A stretch of DNA of 59,877 bases, from positions 1 to 59,877 of the forward strand of contig MGTX01000026.1 of the NCBI GenBank assembly GCA_001799675.1, in the 5' to 3' direction. The notes under the pieces are model-generated. The model had not been told where the DNA came from. It saw nothing but the letters and a program-made list of their open reading frames with translations, and did not search any database. Each line of letters starts with the position of its first letter. The stretch's first letter is position 1. Below are positions 21,308 through 27,624 of the stretch, piece after piece. This stretch comes from Elusimicrobia bacterium GWA2_66_18 (GTDB lineage: Bacteria > Elusimicrobiota > Elusimicrobia > UBA1565 > UBA9628). A program made the position numbers and the translations under genes.

Positions 21308-23230
21308 ATGTCCAACGAAAACGATCCGATACAAACGCAGATGTCGAACGCCGACGACGCCCCTAAGATCGAGCGCGTCGATCCGACTCCCGCGGCGGCG
21401 GCGCCGGTTGCGGCGGTCTCACGTGAGGAGCTCTACCCGCGCGCCGACGGCCCGGTCGAGGCCGATCGTGATGTTCCCCAGCCTGAGGAGACCGACGCTC
21501 ACGGCCCCGAAGACGAGGGGCCCGAGGAGGCCGCGCCTTCCCCGCCCCAACCGGGCCAGGCCGGCGAGGGCGGCCGCCGCCGCCGCAGACGCGGAGGGCA
21601 CAGCGGAGAGCGCGCGAAGGGCGGCCAGACCCGGCCTCCGGCTCCCCCGGCGGAGCCGAGACGCGAGGACCGCGGCGCCAAAGGCCGCCGCGAGCCTGAA
21701 CACCGAGACCCAAGCCGCGGCGAACGCGGGCGGGGACGCGACCACGGCCGCAGCGAGGAGCGCACCAATGAAGTGCGCTCCAGCGGCAACCGCATCCCGG
21801 TCAGGCGCGAGGTCCTGGCCAACACGTCTTTCGAGGAGACCCGCATCGCCATTCTCGAGGACGGACGGTTGGCTGAACTCCACTGGGAGCGTAAGAATTC
21901 GCAGAACATCGTGGGTAACATCTACAAGGGCACGGTCGAGAACGTCCTGCCCGGTATCTCATCGGCCTTCGTCAACATAGGCTTCGACAAGAACGCCTAT
22001 CTCTACATCTCGGATGTCCTCGGAGAAAGGAACGCCGCCATCGACGCGACCTTGAAGAAAGGTCAGCAGATCATGGTCCAGGTGGCCAAGGAAGCGATCA
22101 GCACGAAGGGACCCAAGGTCACCATGGACGTGACGCTGCCGGGCCGTTACCTGGTGTTCACGCCCTTTCAGAGCTACGTCGGCGTCTCGAAGCACATTTC
22201 CGATCCCGAGGAGCGGCAGCGCCTGGAGAAGATCGTGGACCGCATGGTCGCCGATCATCTCGGCGGCAAGGGACTGGTCGTTCGCACCGAAGCCGAAGGG
22301 GCCTGCGAGGAAGAGCTCGAGCGCGAGGTGAAGTACCTCCTCGGTATGTGGCATCAGATCCAGAAGAAGTTCGACGAGACGCCGCCCCCGACCCTTCTTC
22401 ATCATGACCTGAGCCTGGCGCTGCAGATCGCGCGCGACATCATGTCGGAGCACGTCTACGTGTACATGGTCGACAGCAAGGATGCCTATAACGAGGTCGT
22501 CTCCTTCGTGGACGGTTTCGCTCCGGAGCTTAAGAACCGCATCCGCCTTTACGAGTCCAAGACCCCGATCTTCAAGGCCTTCAACATTGAGCGGGAGATC
22601 TCAGGAATTCGCGAGACTAAGGTGGCTCTGCCCAACGGCGGATCCATCGTCATCCAGGAGGCGGAATCCCTCTGCGCCATCGACGTCAACACGGGGCGCT
22701 TCACCGGCTCCAAGTCGCAGGAGGAGACGGTCACCCAAACGAATATCGAGGCGGCCCAGCAGGTCGCCCATGAGATCCGTCTGCGCAACATCGGCGGCAT
22801 CATCGTGGTGGACTTCATCGACATGCGCAAGGCGTCCAACCGCCAAAAGGTCATGGAAGCTTTCGCCGAGGCCTGCCGCACCGACCGCGCCAAGATCCGC
22901 ATCCTGCCCATCACACGCCTGGGCTTGATCGAGCTCACCCGTGAGCGCAAGCGGATGTCCACGGCGGCGTTGCTCACCACGGAGTGCCCGGAATGCCGCG
23001 GCTCGGGCCGCGTGCTCTCCAGCGAGACCCTGCGCATCAAGATCCAGCGCGAGATCTTCGAGATGACCGGCGGGCGTCCCGGCGGCTCCATCCGCGTCCT
23101 CCTGCACCCGGACGTGGCCGAGGCCTTCCGGGCGCAGCACTTGGTCATCGAGAAGAACGTCCAGCGCTCCGTGAAGATTCAGGCCGACCCACAGTTGATG
23201 TGGGAGGATTACAAGATCATCCTGGAATGA
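21308..23230 (+). CDS. rng: Ribonuclease E/G family endoribonuclease with long disordered N-terminus
   Basis: A single-strand endoribonuclease for rRNA/mRNA processing (640 residues). The conserved region begins near residue 166: S1 domain at ~200-290 (GNIYKGTVENVLPGISSAFV), the 5'-sensor/RNase H-like part, and the DNase I-like catalytic Asp459 (AIDVNTGRF) and Asp502 (VVDFIDM). The zinc link has CPECRGSG at 560-566. The first ~165 residues are acidic, then Arg/Gly/Glu/Pro-rich with poly-Arg, unlike standard RNase G. The RNase E C-terminal scaffold is absent. GGAGGA precedes the ATG. Confidence 0.93.
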   Translation: MSNENDPIQTQMSNADDAPKIERVDPTPAAAAPVAAVSREELYPRADGPVEADRDVPQPEETDAHGPEDEGPEEAAPSPPQPGQAGEGGRRRRRRGGHSGERAKGGQTRPPAPPAEPRREDRGAKGRREPEHRDPSRGERGRGRDHGRSEERTNEVRSSGNRIPVRREVLANTSFEETRIAILEDGRLAELHWERKNSQNIVGNIYKGTVENVLPGISSAFVNIGFDKNAYLYISDVLGERNAAIDATLKKGQQIMVQVAKEAISTKGPKVTMDVTLPGRYLVFTPFQSYVGVSKHISDPEERQRLEKIVDRMVADHLGGKGLVVRTEAEGACEEELEREVKYLLGMWHQIQKKFDETPPPTLLHHDLSLALQIARDIMSEHVYVYMVDSKDAYNEVVSFVDGFAPELKNRIRLYESKTPIFKAFNIEREISGIRETKVALPNGGSIVIQEAESLCAIDVNTGRFTGSKSQEETVTQTNIEAAQQVAHEIRLRNIGGIIVVDFIDMRKASNRQKVMEAFAEACRTDRAKIRILPITRLGLIELTRERKRMSTAALLTTECPECRGSGRVLSSETLRIKIQREIFEMTGGRPGGSIRVLLHPDVAEAFRAQHLVIEKNVQRSVKIQADPQLMWEDYKIILE

Positions 23231-24714
23231 GACTCCTCCTCCTGACGGCGGCGTCCCTCGTCCTGTCTGCCGCACTTGCGCGCGCGGCCGAGGAGGTCGT
23301 CGTTGTCGTCTCCGACAAGACCGCGGACAGCGCGCTTTCCTATAAGATCGGCTCCGAGATCTACCTGGATGCCAAACGCGTTGGTGCGATCTACGGGGGA
23401 CAGGTCTACTGGTACGCGGTCTCCGGTCGCGTCCAACTGAGCCTGCGGGGGCGTACGCTGCAATTCGTCGTGGACTCCGACAAGGCCTCGGCCGCAGACC
23501 AAGTCATGGTTCTGCCCGCGCCGGTGCGCGTGCGCGCCGGCCGAGCCTTCCTGCCTCTCTCGCTGTTGAAGTCGGAGTCCTTCGCGCGCTGGAGCGGCTT
23601 CGACGCGCGCTACGACGCCGGGACCCGCACCCTGGAAGTCGAGAGGCGCGGCACAGTCGGTCCGTTGCGGGCTTTTTCCTATAAGGGGCGCACGCGGCTG
23701 GCCATGGTCCTGGCTCCCGGGACGTCCTACCAGACGAGCGCGCGGGGCGTCCAAACCCTGGAGATCGTCCTGCCCTACGGCGTCGTCGAGGGAGAAGAGA
23801 AGGTCGGCCTCGACGATGGAGTCGTTAGCTTCTACGCCGTTAAGCAGGAGGTCGCGCAAGCGCGCGTGAGCGTGCGTTTCACGCAAAAGGGACAACGCTG
23901 GCGCGCCTCGGAGCTCGCGGACCCCCGCCGCTTGGTCGTAGACGTGTACGCTTCGGGCGTCGAGCCGCCCGAGGAGACGCCGGCGGATCGCTCCGTCGTG
24001 GCGAAGTCTTCCGCTTCGGCGGAAATGCCGCGCCGTCGCGTCGTGGTCGTCGACCCGGGTCACGGCGGCAAGGACCCCGGAGCGATCGGCGCGCGGGGGA
24101 CCAAGGAGAAGGATATCAATCTTGCCGCGGGCCTGGAGTTGGCGCGCGTTCTGCGCGAGCGCGGCGACTTCTCGGTCGTGCTCACCCGGGAGGATGACAC
24201 GTTCATGCCCCTCTCCGATCGTTCCCAAAAGGCCAACGACCTGGAGGCCGACCTCTTTGTCTCCCTGCACTGCAACGCCTCGTCAAACCATCGCGAGAAC
24301 GGCTTCGAGGTGTACGCGGTCTCCGAGACGGCTTCGGACCCCGAGGCCGAGCGTCTGGCCGCGGCCGAGAACGCCGTTCTCGAGTTGGAAGGCAAAAACC
24401 CTCAAGAGGAGGCGGCTAAGCTCATCCTCCTAGCCATGACGAAGACCGAGATGATCAATGAATCGGCCCCGTTCGCCGCGTTGGTCGAGAGGGAGATCGC
24501 CAAGCGCTCGGACATCAACGACCGCGGCGCCAAGCAGGCGGGCTTCTACGTCCTGCGCGGAACCCACGCACCGGCGATTCTAGTCGAGATGGCCTTCGTC
24601 AGCCACTCCAAGGACGAGGCGAGACTGGGCTCGCGCCGCTTCCGCCGCAAGTTTGCAGAGGGCGTGGCGGCCGGCATCGCGGACTACGCGCACAAGAAGG
24701 GGTGGCTCGAATGA
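23227..24714 (+). CDS. N-acetylmuramoyl-L-alanine amidase, exported
   Basis: A peptidoglycan hydrolase that cleaves the bond between MurNAc and the peptide. A signal peptide (MRLLLLTAASLVLSAALARA) is followed by a copper-amine-oxidase-N-like or AMIN-like beta region (about 25-250). A C-terminal Amidase_3 zinc domain follows, with VVDPGHGGKDPGA, a helix with the second ligand (LAAGLELARVL) and SLHCNAS. The 495-residue length fits AmiC-like enzymes. The ATG overlaps the RNase stop and the TGA overlaps murI. Confidence 0.92.
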   Translation: MRLLLLTAASLVLSAALARAAEEVVVVVSDKTADSALSYKIGSEIYLDAKRVGAIYGGQVYWYAVSGRVQLSLRGRTLQFVVDSDKASAADQVMVLPAPVRVRAGRAFLPLSLLKSESFARWSGFDARYDAGTRTLEVERRGTVGPLRAFSYKGRTRLAMVLAPGTSYQTSARGVQTLEIVLPYGVVEGEEKVGLDDGVVSFYAVKQEVAQARVSVRFTQKGQRWRASELADPRRLVVDVYASGVEPPEETPADRSVVAKSSASAEMPRRRVVVVDPGHGGKDPGAIGARGTKEKDINLAAGLELARVLRERGDFSVVLTREDDTFMPLSDRSQKANDLEADLFVSLHCNASSNHRENGFEVYAVSETASDPEAERLAAAENAVLELEGKNPQEEAAKLILLAMTKTEMINESAPFAALVEREIAKRSDINDRGAKQAGFYVLRGTHAPAILVEMAFVSHSKDEARLGSRRFRRKFAEGVAAGIADYAHKKGWLE

Positions 24715-25526
24715 GGAAAACCTCGGCGCGCGCGCCGATCGGGGTCTTCGACTCTGGTCTTGGCGGCCTGACCGTTTTCAGGGCCCTGTCTCGCCGCATG
24801 CCCGGGGAGTCCCTGGTGTATTTTGGCGATACGGCGCACGTCCCCTACGGCTCCAAGTCTCCACAGTCCGTGGCGCGTTATTCCGTCGAAATCGCGCGTT
24901 TCCTTGCGGCCAAGGGCATCAAGCTCCTGGTAGTCGCCTGCAACACCTCCTCGGCCGTGGCCCTGCCCGCCATCCGCCGGGCCGTGAAGATCCCCGTCAT
25001 CGGCGTCATCGAGCCCGGCTCGCGCGCCGCGCTTGCCGCCACGCGCGGCGGCCGCATCGGCATCATCGGTACCGAGGCGACCGTGCGCTCCGGCGCCTAT
25101 CCTCAGGTCCTGAGGGCTTTGGGTTCGCGCGCTAAGACCGCTTCGCGGGCGTGCCCGCTTTTCGTGCCCCTCGTTGAAGAAGGCTGGTGGGACGGCCAGG
25201 TGACAGAAGAGATCGCCCGCCGCTACGCCGTCCCCCTGCGTCGGGCCCGGGTGGACACGCTCATCCTCGGTTGTACGCACTATCCGTACCTCAAGCCGGT
25301 GCTGGCGCGCGTCATGGGCCCGCGCGTGCGCCTCATAGACTCCGCCGAGGAAACCGCGCGCCGCACCCAGTCGGCTCTCAAAGAGGCGGGCCTGCTCGCT
25401 CCAGCGGGGCGCCGCGGACGGCGCGAGTTCTACGCTTCCGACGCACCCGAGCGCTTCAAGCGCCTGGCTCGCCGCATGCTTGGACCCGGCGTGACGCGGG
25501 TGCGGAGGCACTCCTTCGGCTCATGA
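24711..25526 (+). CDS. murI: Glutamate racemase
   Basis: Supplies D-glutamate for peptidoglycan. Catalytic cysteines are Cys77 (ACNTSS) and Cys188 (GCTHYPYL), with the substrate loop FDSGLGGLTVF at residues 13-23 and FGDTAHVPYG. The 271-residue length is typical. ATG 24711 is chosen over GTG 24702 because it overlaps the amidase stop and lies about 8 nt after an AAGGGG ribosome-binding site. It groups functionally with the cell-wall genes upstream. Confidence 0.95.
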   Translation: MRKTSARAPIGVFDSGLGGLTVFRALSRRMPGESLVYFGDTAHVPYGSKSPQSVARYSVEIARFLAAKGIKLLVVACNTSSAVALPAIRRAVKIPVIGVIEPGSRAALAATRGGRIGIIGTEATVRSGAYPQVLRALGSRAKTASRACPLFVPLVEEGWWDGQVTEEIARRYAVPLRRARVDTLILGCTHYPYLKPVLARVMGPRVRLIDSAEETARRTQSALKEAGLLAPAGRRGRREFYASDAPERFKRLARRMLGPGVTRVRRHSFGS

Positions 25527-26131
25527 AAGAACTGCTTGCCGCCCTAGGTCTCGCCAAGGTCCGCGTCGACGCCGGGTTCTCCCGCATCGGACGGCGCCTC
25601 GTTGCGGGGAATGCCGCGGATCGAGCCCTCATGACGCTGGCCGCCCGCGCCGTCTCGGCCGGCAATGCCCTCATGGCGCTCTGCCGGGAGGGACACGCCA
25701 ACGAGTCCCTGCCCCTCTTGCGCGCGCTCGCGGAGTTCGCGCTCGCCATGCGTTGGGTCTCCGTCGACGCGGAGGCGCGGGCCCCGCAGGCCTGGACGGA
25801 GCTGGAGGCGGCGCGTTGGGAGTTCCTGTGGCCCGAGGCGCGCGCCCGCGAGCGCGCCGAGTCCTTCGGCATGAAGGCGTGGGCCGCCGATGCAGCCTTC
25901 GCCACGGCGTCCGACTTCGTGCGCGGCAATGCCGGAGGCCTGCCGTGGAGCCACGTTTTTTCCGAGTCGCAGTTGCCCGGCCGCAAGCCGGAAGAGGTCC
26001 TCGCCGCGGCGACCGTGTGGCTGGCGCTGGCTTTGGAGGCGTTGGATCGCCGCTGGCCGGGTGAGTTCCCCGGTTCCGCGGAGATGCGCGATCGTGCCCA
26101 GATTTCGAGAGGTCAACGACATGATGAATGA
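25523..26131 (+). CDS. Helical protein of unknown function, DUF5677-like
   Basis: A 202-residue protein that begins by overlapping the murI stop (ATGA) and ends 11 bp inside rho. It is predominantly helical. The segment with ALMALCREGHANESLPLLRA followed by LAEFALAMRWV resembles the central helices of DUF5677-type proteins, but this is only pattern-level similarity. No signal peptide or transmembrane segment is seen. Translational coupling to rho suggests co-expression. The function is not known to me. Confidence 0.7.
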   Translation: MKELLAALGLAKVRVDAGFSRIGRRLVAGNAADRALMTLAARAVSAGNALMALCREGHANESLPLLRALAEFALAMRWVSVDAEARAPQAWTELEAARWEFLWPEARARERAESFGMKAWAADAAFATASDFVRGNAGGLPWSHVFSESQLPGRKPEEVLAAATVWLALALEALDRRWPGEFPGSAEMRDRAQISRGQRHDE

Positions 26132-27239
26132 AGAGAACGCAGGCGGCGGACAATCCACTCCCCAGGGAGGCGGCCAGGGCGCTCACCAGGATCACGGCGG
26201 AGGCGGCGGGCGGCGTCGGCGCCGTAGGCATCGCGGGGGAGGCGGAGGTAATCATCAGCACCAAGGCCAGCGCCAAGGCGGTCAACACCAGGGCCAACGT
26301 CAAGGCCAGGGCGGCCACAACCCGGTTCCTAACGGCGGCAATCGTCCATCCCATGTCCCCGCTCCGCCCCAGCGCAGCGAGGCCGAACTCCTCTTCGCGG
26401 CGAAAACGCCGGTGGATCCTCATGAGTGGCTGCAACTGGAGAAAGGCTCGACCGACCCATCCATGCGCGCCCTCGACCTCTTGGCGCCCATCGGCAAGGG
26501 CACGCGGGGTCTCATCGTCGCACCCCCCAAGGCCGGCAAGACGACCTTCCTCAAGCAGATCTCGAACGCGGTTCATGCCGTGGACCCGACGATCCGCCAG
26601 TACTGCCTGCTCATCGACGAGCGCCCCGAGGAGGTCACGGACTTCAAGCGTTCCGTGCCCGCCGAGGTCTGGGCGTCCTCGTCGGATCAGTCCTACGACA
26701 AGCACAAGAAGCTGGGAGAGGATCTGATGCGCGTGGCCCTCGAGAAGACGGCGCAGGGCGAGGACGTGTTCATCCTGCTCGACTCGCTGACGCGCCTGGC
26801 GCGTGTGCACAACCAGTTCGCGACCGGCACGCGCACGATGTCGGGCGGCCTGGACTCGCGGGCGATGGAGGCTCCTCGCCGCTTCTTCGGCGCGGCGCGC
26901 AAGCTGGAGGAGGGCGGCTCGCTGACCATCCTCGCGACCATCCTCGTCGACACGGGCTCCAAGATGGACGAGATCATCTTTCAGGAGTTCAAAGGCACCG
27001 GCAACATGGAGCTGGTGCTGTACCGCCAGGCCGCGGACATGCGCATCTTCCCGGCGCTGAAGGTCCGCGACAGCGGCACGCGCAAGGAAGAGAAGCTCTT
27101 CCCCAAGGACTACCTGGAGGGCGTCTACAAGCTGCGCCGTCACCTCGCTTCGCTCGGCGACATCGAGGCGATCAAGGCCCTCACCGAATTGATGCGGACC
27201 TACAAGAACAACACGACGCTGCTCGCGTCGTTGAAATAA
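26121..27239 (+). CDS. rho: Transcription termination factor Rho lacking the cold-shock RNA-binding domain
   Basis: An RNA-dependent ATPase that ends transcription. The motor is intact: Walker A APPKAGKT at about 134-141, LLIDERPEEVTD, Walker B VFILLDSLTRLARVHN, and the Q/R-loop region GGLDSRAMEAPRRFFGAAR with VDTGSKMDEIIFQEFKGTGN. Residues 1-85 are Gly/Gln/His/Arg-rich low complexity. This runs straight into ELLFAAKTPVDPHEWL, which aligns with the end of the normal RNA-binding domain, so the N-terminal helical and cold-shock domains are absent. A GAGAGG site lies 8 nt before ATG 26121; ATG 26124 is also possible. Confidence 0.93.
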   Translation: MMNEENAGGGQSTPQGGGQGAHQDHGGGGGRRRRRRHRGGGGGNHQHQGQRQGGQHQGQRQGQGGHNPVPNGGNRPSHVPAPPQRSEAELLFAAKTPVDPHEWLQLEKGSTDPSMRALDLLAPIGKGTRGLIVAPPKAGKTTFLKQISNAVHAVDPTIRQYCLLIDERPEEVTDFKRSVPAEVWASSSDQSYDKHKKLGEDLMRVALEKTAQGEDVFILLDSLTRLARVHNQFATGTRTMSGGLDSRAMEAPRRFFGAARKLEEGGSLTILATILVDTGSKMDEIIFQEFKGTGNMELVLYRQAADMRIFPALKVRDSGTRKEEKLFPKDYLEGVYKLRRHLASLGDIEAIKALTELMRTYKNNTTLLASLK

Positions 27240-27243
27240 CATC

Positions 27244-27624
27244 ATGAAAAGGATTCCCATCATCAGTGCGAAGGCTCCGGCCGCCATCGGTCCATACTCC
27301 CAGGGAGTCTCCTCGGGGGGAATGGTGTTCATCTCGGGACAGATCCCCGCGGGCGTGACCGGCGCCCTGGTCGCGGGGGGCGCGGCCGAGCAGACCGAGC
27401 GCTGCCTGATCAACGTCCGCGAGGTGCTGGTTGCCGCGGGCCTGACCATGAACGACGTGGTCAAGACCACGGTGTTTATGACCGACCTCGGCCAGTTCCC
27501 AGCCATGAACGAGGTCTATGCCCGTCATTTTAAGGCGCCCTTCCCCGCGCGCGCGACCGTGCAGGTCTCGGCCCTGCCCAAGGACGCGGCCGTCGAGATC
27601 GAGGCCATTGCCGTCAGGCCTTAG
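27244..27624 (+). CDS. ridA: RidA family enamine/imine deaminase
   Basis: Hydrolyses reactive enamine/imine intermediates such as 2-aminoacrylate. The 126-residue product has KAPAAIGPYSQGV at the N-terminus, SGQIPAG, and the C-terminal FPARATVQVSALPKDAAVEIEA segment with the conserved active-site Arg. It lies 4 bp after rho and directly before a membrane protein gene. Confidence 0.95.
   Translation: MKRIPIISAKAPAAIGPYSQGVSSGGMVFISGQIPAGVTGALVAGGAAEQTERCLINVREVLVAAGLTMNDVVKTTVFMTDLGQFPAMNEVYARHFKAPFPARATVQVSALPKDAAVEIEAIAVRP

Follow-up and report, generated by a model that had tools for sequence, protein, structure and literature searches.

A short Rho paralogue without the cold-shock domain, encoded alongside canonical Rho in Elusimicrobiota

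Rho is commonly viewed as one protein per cell, with its specificity provided by the N-terminal domain. In Escherichia coli Rho this domain holds the primary RNA site and contacts to RNA polymerase (PMC8828861). Some Rhos carry an additional low-complexity segment. The N-terminal segment of Mycobacterium tuberculosis Rho, rich in Arg, Gly, Asn and Asp, binds RNA alone (PMC4167861), a disordered insert occurs in Bacteroides Rho (PMC11829017), and inserts of this kind alter the sites used by Rho (PMC4167861, PMC8828861). In Caulobacter and Rhodobacter, Rho has also been found in complexes with RNase E (PMC5472812, PMC3071783). A 2025 survey of 632 Rho proteins with lengths of 355–857 residues used the cold-shock domain (CSD, PF07497) as its entry step, which excludes any clade without a CSD (PMC11829017). 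Among the papers listed in full-text searches of the open literature, none was recognisable as a description of CSD-less Rho paralogues.

The window analysed here is the whole 59,877-nucleotide stretch of contig MGTX01000026.1 from Elusimicrobia bacterium GWA2_66_18. It encodes a Rho-family protein, hereafter short Rho, whose features and neighbours are listed in Table 1. The start MMNEE or MNEE was common to close relatives, and in three of them (L009, L018 and L041) the open frame started only 2–9 residues ahead of it, so that no domain is concealed there; the start is credible by this comparison, and a hidden upstream domain was ruled out. Of the 35 genomes in the family to which the window belongs, its own among them, 34 have short Rho, in some cases as a fragment, which rules out a broken or mis-assembled gene. 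The sole family genome without it (G005) also had no detectable RNase E/G, and an assembly gap is therefore likely. An antisense open frame of 611 codons (25671–27506, minus strand) shadows short rho, and longest-ORF calling would pick it over the real gene.

Table 1 Features of the short rho locus in the window.
Feature	Position	Strand	Basis
RNase E/G	21308..23230	+	PF10150, E 1.9e-95
RNase E/G N-terminal tail, 164 residues, R/E/P-rich, with GGRRRRRRGG	21308-21799	+	Sequence
N-acetylmuramoyl-L-alanine amidase	23221..24714	+	PF01520
murI-like racemase	24702..25526	+	PF01177, synteny
DUF5677-family gene; 3' end overlaps the short Rho start by 11 bases	25523..26131	+	PF18928, E 1.9e-6, 28.5 bits (cut-off 27.1)
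CSD-less Rho paralogue (short Rho), 372 aa	26121..27239	+	ORF, Pfam, TIGR00767, tree
Low-complexity G/Q/R/H tail, residues 1-85	26121..26375	+	Composition, no CSD match, pLDDT
Six consecutive Arg codons (R31-R36), Gly-rich flanks	26211..26228	+	Sequence
Rho motor core, residues 87-372: P-loop, catalytic Glu, Arg finger, Q-/R-loop region	26379..27236	+	Alignment, model, Foldseek
Walker A APPKAGKT, residues 134-141	26520..26543	+	Alignment
ridA (Ribonuc_L-PSP), 4 bases 3' of short rho	27244..27624	+	PF01042, E 1.2e-40

The window protein has a RecA-type Rho motor with its catalytic and secondary-site residues. It resembled canonical Rho (E. coli b3783 and the canonical copy of its own genome) in the motor core, P-loop, catalytic Glu, Arg valve, Arg finger and loop signatures. 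A 10-sequence alignment spanning canonical, Verrucomicrobiota and short Rhos was invariant at E. coli positions G183, K184, T185, E211, R212, S266, R269, K336, F355 and R366, and K326 (E. coli numbering) was kept in the window protein. Variation within the motor of some members included P-loop Lys181, replaced by Gly in the Omnitrophota and gammaproteobacterial rows, and an Asn at Walker B in one row. Where the two canonical rows read ASTFDEP, short Rho has an ASSSDxSY-type sequence. The roles of the catalytic Glu, Arg valve, Arg finger and R-loop Lys326 are described in PMC8828861. The dN/dS values of the core (0.023–0.124 in six pairs) indicate that the motor is under purifying selection. 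In the AlphaFold2 model, residues 91–372 mostly had pLDDT >90, with weaker values near 230–250. All 50 matches that Foldseek listed from the PDB for this model were Rho proteins, at 44–50% identity.

Compared with canonical Rho, short Rho has neither Rho_N nor CSD and carries a putatively disordered tail instead. Residues 1–85 comprised 26 Gly, 14 Gln, 11 Arg, 8 His, 7 Pro and 6 Asn plus few others. Entropy was equal to or lower than that of this tail in nine of the 2656 sliding 85-aa stretches from the 55 greedily called ORFs of the window, and these nine fell in only two ORFs, the antisense shadow (25671) and RNase E/G (21308). A Pfam search at E up to 1 matched PF00006 ATPase at residues 115–318, together with weak P-loop matches, and gave no match to Rho_N (PF07498) or Rho_RNA_bind/CSD (PF07497). 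The TIGR00767 alignment began at profile position 124 and covered window residues 83–371, with a score of 340.3 against a cut-off of 509.45. NF006886 was passed by all four CSD-less proteins scanned, the window protein among them (358.7 vs cut-off 315).

We further built a CSD profile from 14 canonical Rhos. At E<1e-3 it recovered each of 20 held-out canonical loci, among which one gene is represented twice, as well as all seven Verrucomicrobiota loci (four genes), and it matched none of the 126 CSD-less loci, a set that takes in duplicates, a canonical fragment without its N-terminus (L170) and a locus cut before the tail (L026). Of 52 loci outside the window's group, 50 had 26–54 residues ahead of the core and the remaining two had 70 and 81; a CSD, at about 70 residues, does not fit into fewer than 60. 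The AlphaFold2 model of the window protein had no secondary structure ahead of residue 87 and pLDDT mostly <50 over residues 1–67, but the same region was modelled as disordered in a control protein whose CSD is evident, so the model neither proves disorder of the tail nor excludes an OB fold; the exclusion of an OB fold comes from the sequence profiles and N-terminal lengths. The sequence-only reading of this DNA had described a complete Rho motor, preceded by neither the N-terminal helices nor the CSD, with a low-complexity Gly/Gln/His/Arg tail in their place and no coding sequence in frame upstream, and each of these descriptions held in the searches of the protein and its relatives.

The N-termini of short Rhos fell into three types. 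Proteins of the window's family have the long G/Q/H/R tail, those of Omnitrophota and deep Elusimicrobiota have short ends rich in His, Asn, Pro and Arg, and in Gammaproteobacteria the start is conserved and resembles MTRKILSLKVKR. The motif M-x-[RK]-[KE]-x-L-[STG]-L was present in all 43 gammaproteobacterial short Rhos counted (loci in L059–L115; a 44th, L085, was left out for an N-gap) and is a candidate docking motif. The long R/G/Q/H tail was apparently elaborated later, within the window's order. Poly-CGN runs are frequent in this GC-rich genome (172 places forward vs 63 in the reversed control). A sample of 459,877 bases, which contains the window and amounts to about 16% of the genome, held eight coding-like frames with a run of at least six Arg: two were RNase E/G and short Rho, two had runs that precede the likely start, and the remaining four resembled shadow frames as judged by eye. 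Poly-Arg as a genome-wide trait was rejected on this sample.

The genome from which the window comes (2.79 Mb in 34 contigs, 94.7% complete) also encodes a canonical Rho of 452 aa on another contig (C31:99897-101132), with both Rho_N (E 2.3e-12) and Rho_RNA_bind (E 8.9e-31). The absence of canonical Rho from this cell was thereby ruled out. The sequence-only reading, which took the cell's Rho to have lost its RNA-binding domain and had itself named a second full-length rho as evidence to the contrary, fails on this point, and a different, older thing remains: the window gene is almost certainly a CSD-less paralogue that coexists with canonical Rho. Nor does the tail simply substitute for the CSD in this lineage, as that reading also had it, given that CSD-less paralogues occur in three phyla, those outside the window's group mostly with a short N-terminus. 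Its suggestion of another mode of RNA loading is a reasonable conjecture. Short Rho shares a low-complexity N-terminal segment with the insert-bearing Rhos of Mycobacterium, Micrococcus and Bacteroides thetaiotaomicron; in those proteins, however, the segment adds to the usual RNA-binding domain, whereas short Rho has no CSD and the cell has a separate canonical Rho.

Relatives of short Rho belonged to Elusimicrobiota, Omnitrophota and marine Gammaproteobacteria among the best 80 of 567 related stretches. Within the same best 80, the window protein shared 53–59% identity (best segment) with gammaproteobacterial short Rhos, more than the 48% it shared with its own canonical Rho over residues 91–371. 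In a tree of the core alone, for which 21 of 100 rows were removed for redundancy to leave 79, the 39 CSD-less rows lay on one side of a branch with 100/100 support, 36 canonical rows from E. coli and several further phyla were grouped at 100/99, and four CSD-bearing second Rhos of Verrucomicrobiota formed a third, separate branch. An earlier, first tree also set the CSD-less Rhos apart. The core phylogeny thus places short Rho in a clade of its own, which we interpret as an old group of paralogous Rho-type motors that lack the primary RNA-binding domain at the N-terminus.

Two other groups come close to this clade. NCBIfam NF041509 ("Rho, short form", paralog_Rho2) likewise represents short Rho paralogues, but the window protein scored 289 bits against a cut-off of 628 and aligned from profile position 70, whereas the first part of the profile aligns with stretches of other Rhos that carry a CSD. 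Membership was rejected, with scores of 312–326 for three further short Rhos, two from Gammaproteobacteria and one from Omnitrophota. The Verrucomicrobiota second Rhos (L078, L089, L097 and L109) also occur beside a canonical Rho (three Verrucomicrobiota genomes), and no Rho_N was found in the two that were scanned (L089, L109). Unlike short Rho, they keep the CSD (PF07497 E 4.5e-16 in L089; 4/4 by profile).

Beyond the window's family, short Rho was found in 11 of 12 genomes of two families in the same order, the twelfth having a 46% fragment only, and in 3 of 11 other genomes of the same class. A phylum-wide draw gave 12 of 149 Elusimicrobiota genomes. In Omnitrophota it was present in 26 of 117 genomes, some overlapping the 18-genome set described below. 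Among Gammaproteobacteria it was found in at least 1 of 276 genomes of the class (the centre genome itself) and at least 3 of 197 of the centre genome's order (centre included), both values being lower bounds because 8–11 candidates were scored per genome.

In the window's order, short rho lies in a one-strand string that reads mreC-mreD-pbp2-rodA-RNase E/G-amidase-murI-(DUF5677)-short rho-ridA. The mre, pbp2 and rodA genes were named by sequence reading and the others by Pfam. Across the 27 loci of two families (f1 and f2), murI was present in 26, ridA in 25 and a recognisable DUF5677 gene in 19; in f2, about 2 kb of other sequence separates short rho on each side from DUF5677 and ridA. RNase E/G, located by profile search, was linked in 23 of these loci, and the other four stretches stop at contig ends. 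None of the nine neighbour genes was found in any of the 13 loci (5–16 kb each) from other Elusimicrobiota families and Omnitrophota.

The linked RNase E/G proteins carry N-terminal tails rich in R, G, E and D, of 91–321 residues in 20 of 23 loci, lengths that are upper bounds from longest-start reading; of the other three, one has an N-gap, one meets a contig end and one lacks an early ATG in its frame. In 13 of 14 unlinked relatives from the phylum, at most 41 frame residues preceded the RNase E/G core; the remaining one had 158, of which the 60 shown were not R/G-rich. Arg runs of 5–8 occurred in 8 of the 20 readable RNase E/G tails, and in both RNase E/G and short Rho in 5 of 20, so that the two proteins agree in these runs only in part. 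An Elusimicrobia RNase E/G is listed as 488 aa in a table of PMC3071783. As the string and the RNase E/G tail occur in one order only, they count together as a single evolutionary event at best. Since cell-wall genes are also in the string, the linkage of RNase E/G may be incidental. Elsewhere short Rho is not beside RNase E/G, as the 13 loci show, and its surroundings differ among Gammaproteobacteria; a partnership with RNase E/G therefore cannot be its ancestral function.

We tentatively favour a possible, by no means established, account in which short Rho is an RNA translocase that is loaded by its disordered tail and acts with RNase E/G, instead of a rut-dependent terminator. The protein would form a hexameric ring and translocate RNA via the central (secondary) site, after non-specific capture of the RNA by the basic, Gly-rich tail and its threading through that site. 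In the window's order, short Rho and RNase E/G might meet on RNA through their low-complexity tails, and the motor could then strip or unwind RNA for RNase E/G, by analogy with canonical Rho in alphaproteobacterial degradosomes. In the Caulobacter and Rhodobacter degradosomes the Rho found with RNase E is the ordinary one, whereas the link here consists of gene order and tails only. The frequency of poly-CGN runs in this genome, the partial agreement of the arginine runs and the motor variation in some short Rhos count against the account. Because the CSD and the polymerase-contacting N-terminal domain are missing, a role in RNA turnover would fit better than rut-dependent, polymerase-bound termination. 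A wider version, which we consider unlikely, is that short Rho represents an ancient second Rho lineage without any engagement of RNA polymerase. Its members would be ring translocases devoted to RNA turnover and loaded by a disordered Arg-Gly tail, and in one Elusimicrobiota order they would have evolved with RNase E/G, in one gene string, into a tail-held, degradosome-like body.

A serious if somewhat unlikely alternative is that short Rho is a specialised second terminator with its own targets, reaching nascent RNA via its basic tail or NusG. The conserved motor signature and the passed NF006886 "Rho" model agree with such a role, as does the RNA binding by the mycobacterial segment and the shift of sites by inserts reported in PMC4167861 and PMC8828861. 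A terminator of this kind would nevertheless have to work without the N-terminal domain through which E. coli Rho touches RNA polymerase (PMC8828861), in a cell that already has a canonical Rho for termination.

Short Rho could instead modify canonical Rho, by forming mixed rings with fewer primary sites or by titrating Rho, NusG or RNA. A canonical match above the cut-off was present in 16 of 18 genomes with CSD-less Rho (the exceptions being the bins G077 and G078, with completeness not given), and two Rho matches occurred in all 12 short-Rho genomes among the 149 of Elusimicrobiota; this co-occurrence, the common fold and the identity to the genome's own canonical copy are what such a modifier would show. 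It is quite improbable all the same, as short Rho is separate on the tree and constrained like an independent enzyme, and it retains catalytic residues that a mere modifier would not need.

That short Rho is the ancestral type, without a CSD from the start, and that the domain was acquired in canonical Rho is very improbable. Midpoint rooting does put the split between short and other Rhos at the deepest branch, but it is a drawing aid only. When F1-type and related distant ATPases were added, the support for the short group fell to 60/100 and the outgroup branches were very long, and this rooting was set aside; the CSD-bearing Verrucomicrobiota Rhos, a third kind on their own branch, also speak against it. 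An artefact, that is, a truncated, mis-assembled or mis-started gene or an over-diverged OB fold in the tail, is hardly credible, for although AlphaFold2 on such shallow alignments overlooked a real CSD in the control, it would have to recur throughout the family, in N-termini too short for the domain, behind frames closed just upstream and under dN/dS of 0.02–0.12.

A conserved CSD-less clade alongside canonical Rho would allow the action of the motor alone to be separated from the contribution of the primary site, and it raises the question of whether Rho-type rings have jobs outside termination. The clade is easily overlooked, given the CSD-based entry to the survey in PMC11829017, the passing of NF006886, and plain "Rho" naming, which was the name borne by the one annotated CSD-less member. 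Cultured marine carriers, such as relatives of Marinobacter, Colwellia and Halomonas (among the best 80 of 567 related stretches), make it open to experiment.

Short Rho looks accessory in Gammaproteobacteria. A search for a conserved partner there gave no neighbour that recurs beyond a few related genera. A defence system was rejected: the best PADLOC matches (mad8) were weak, with E 2.7e-4 for the window protein and 2.9e-7 for a Shewanella copy, and lay over the P-loop. A phage origin was likewise rejected: 17 records of a phage collection matched short Rho, none above 53.3% identity, and IMG/VR yielded one record, matched by both queries, whose sequence is the same as that of short Rho on a Spartinivicinus plasmid. 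This plasmid, pB of Spartinivicinus ruber, is phage-like, with short Rho (L177, 5899–6858) near holin, terminase and capsid genes. In Marinobacter (L096, 310–8246), short Rho is located in an array of small same-strand genes, toxin-antitoxin-like and acetyltransferase-like by ORF reading, that is reminiscent of a cassette array. A Kitasatospora plasmid (L178, 2473–3903) encodes a Rho with both Rho_N and CSD that is labelled only as a hypothetical protein.
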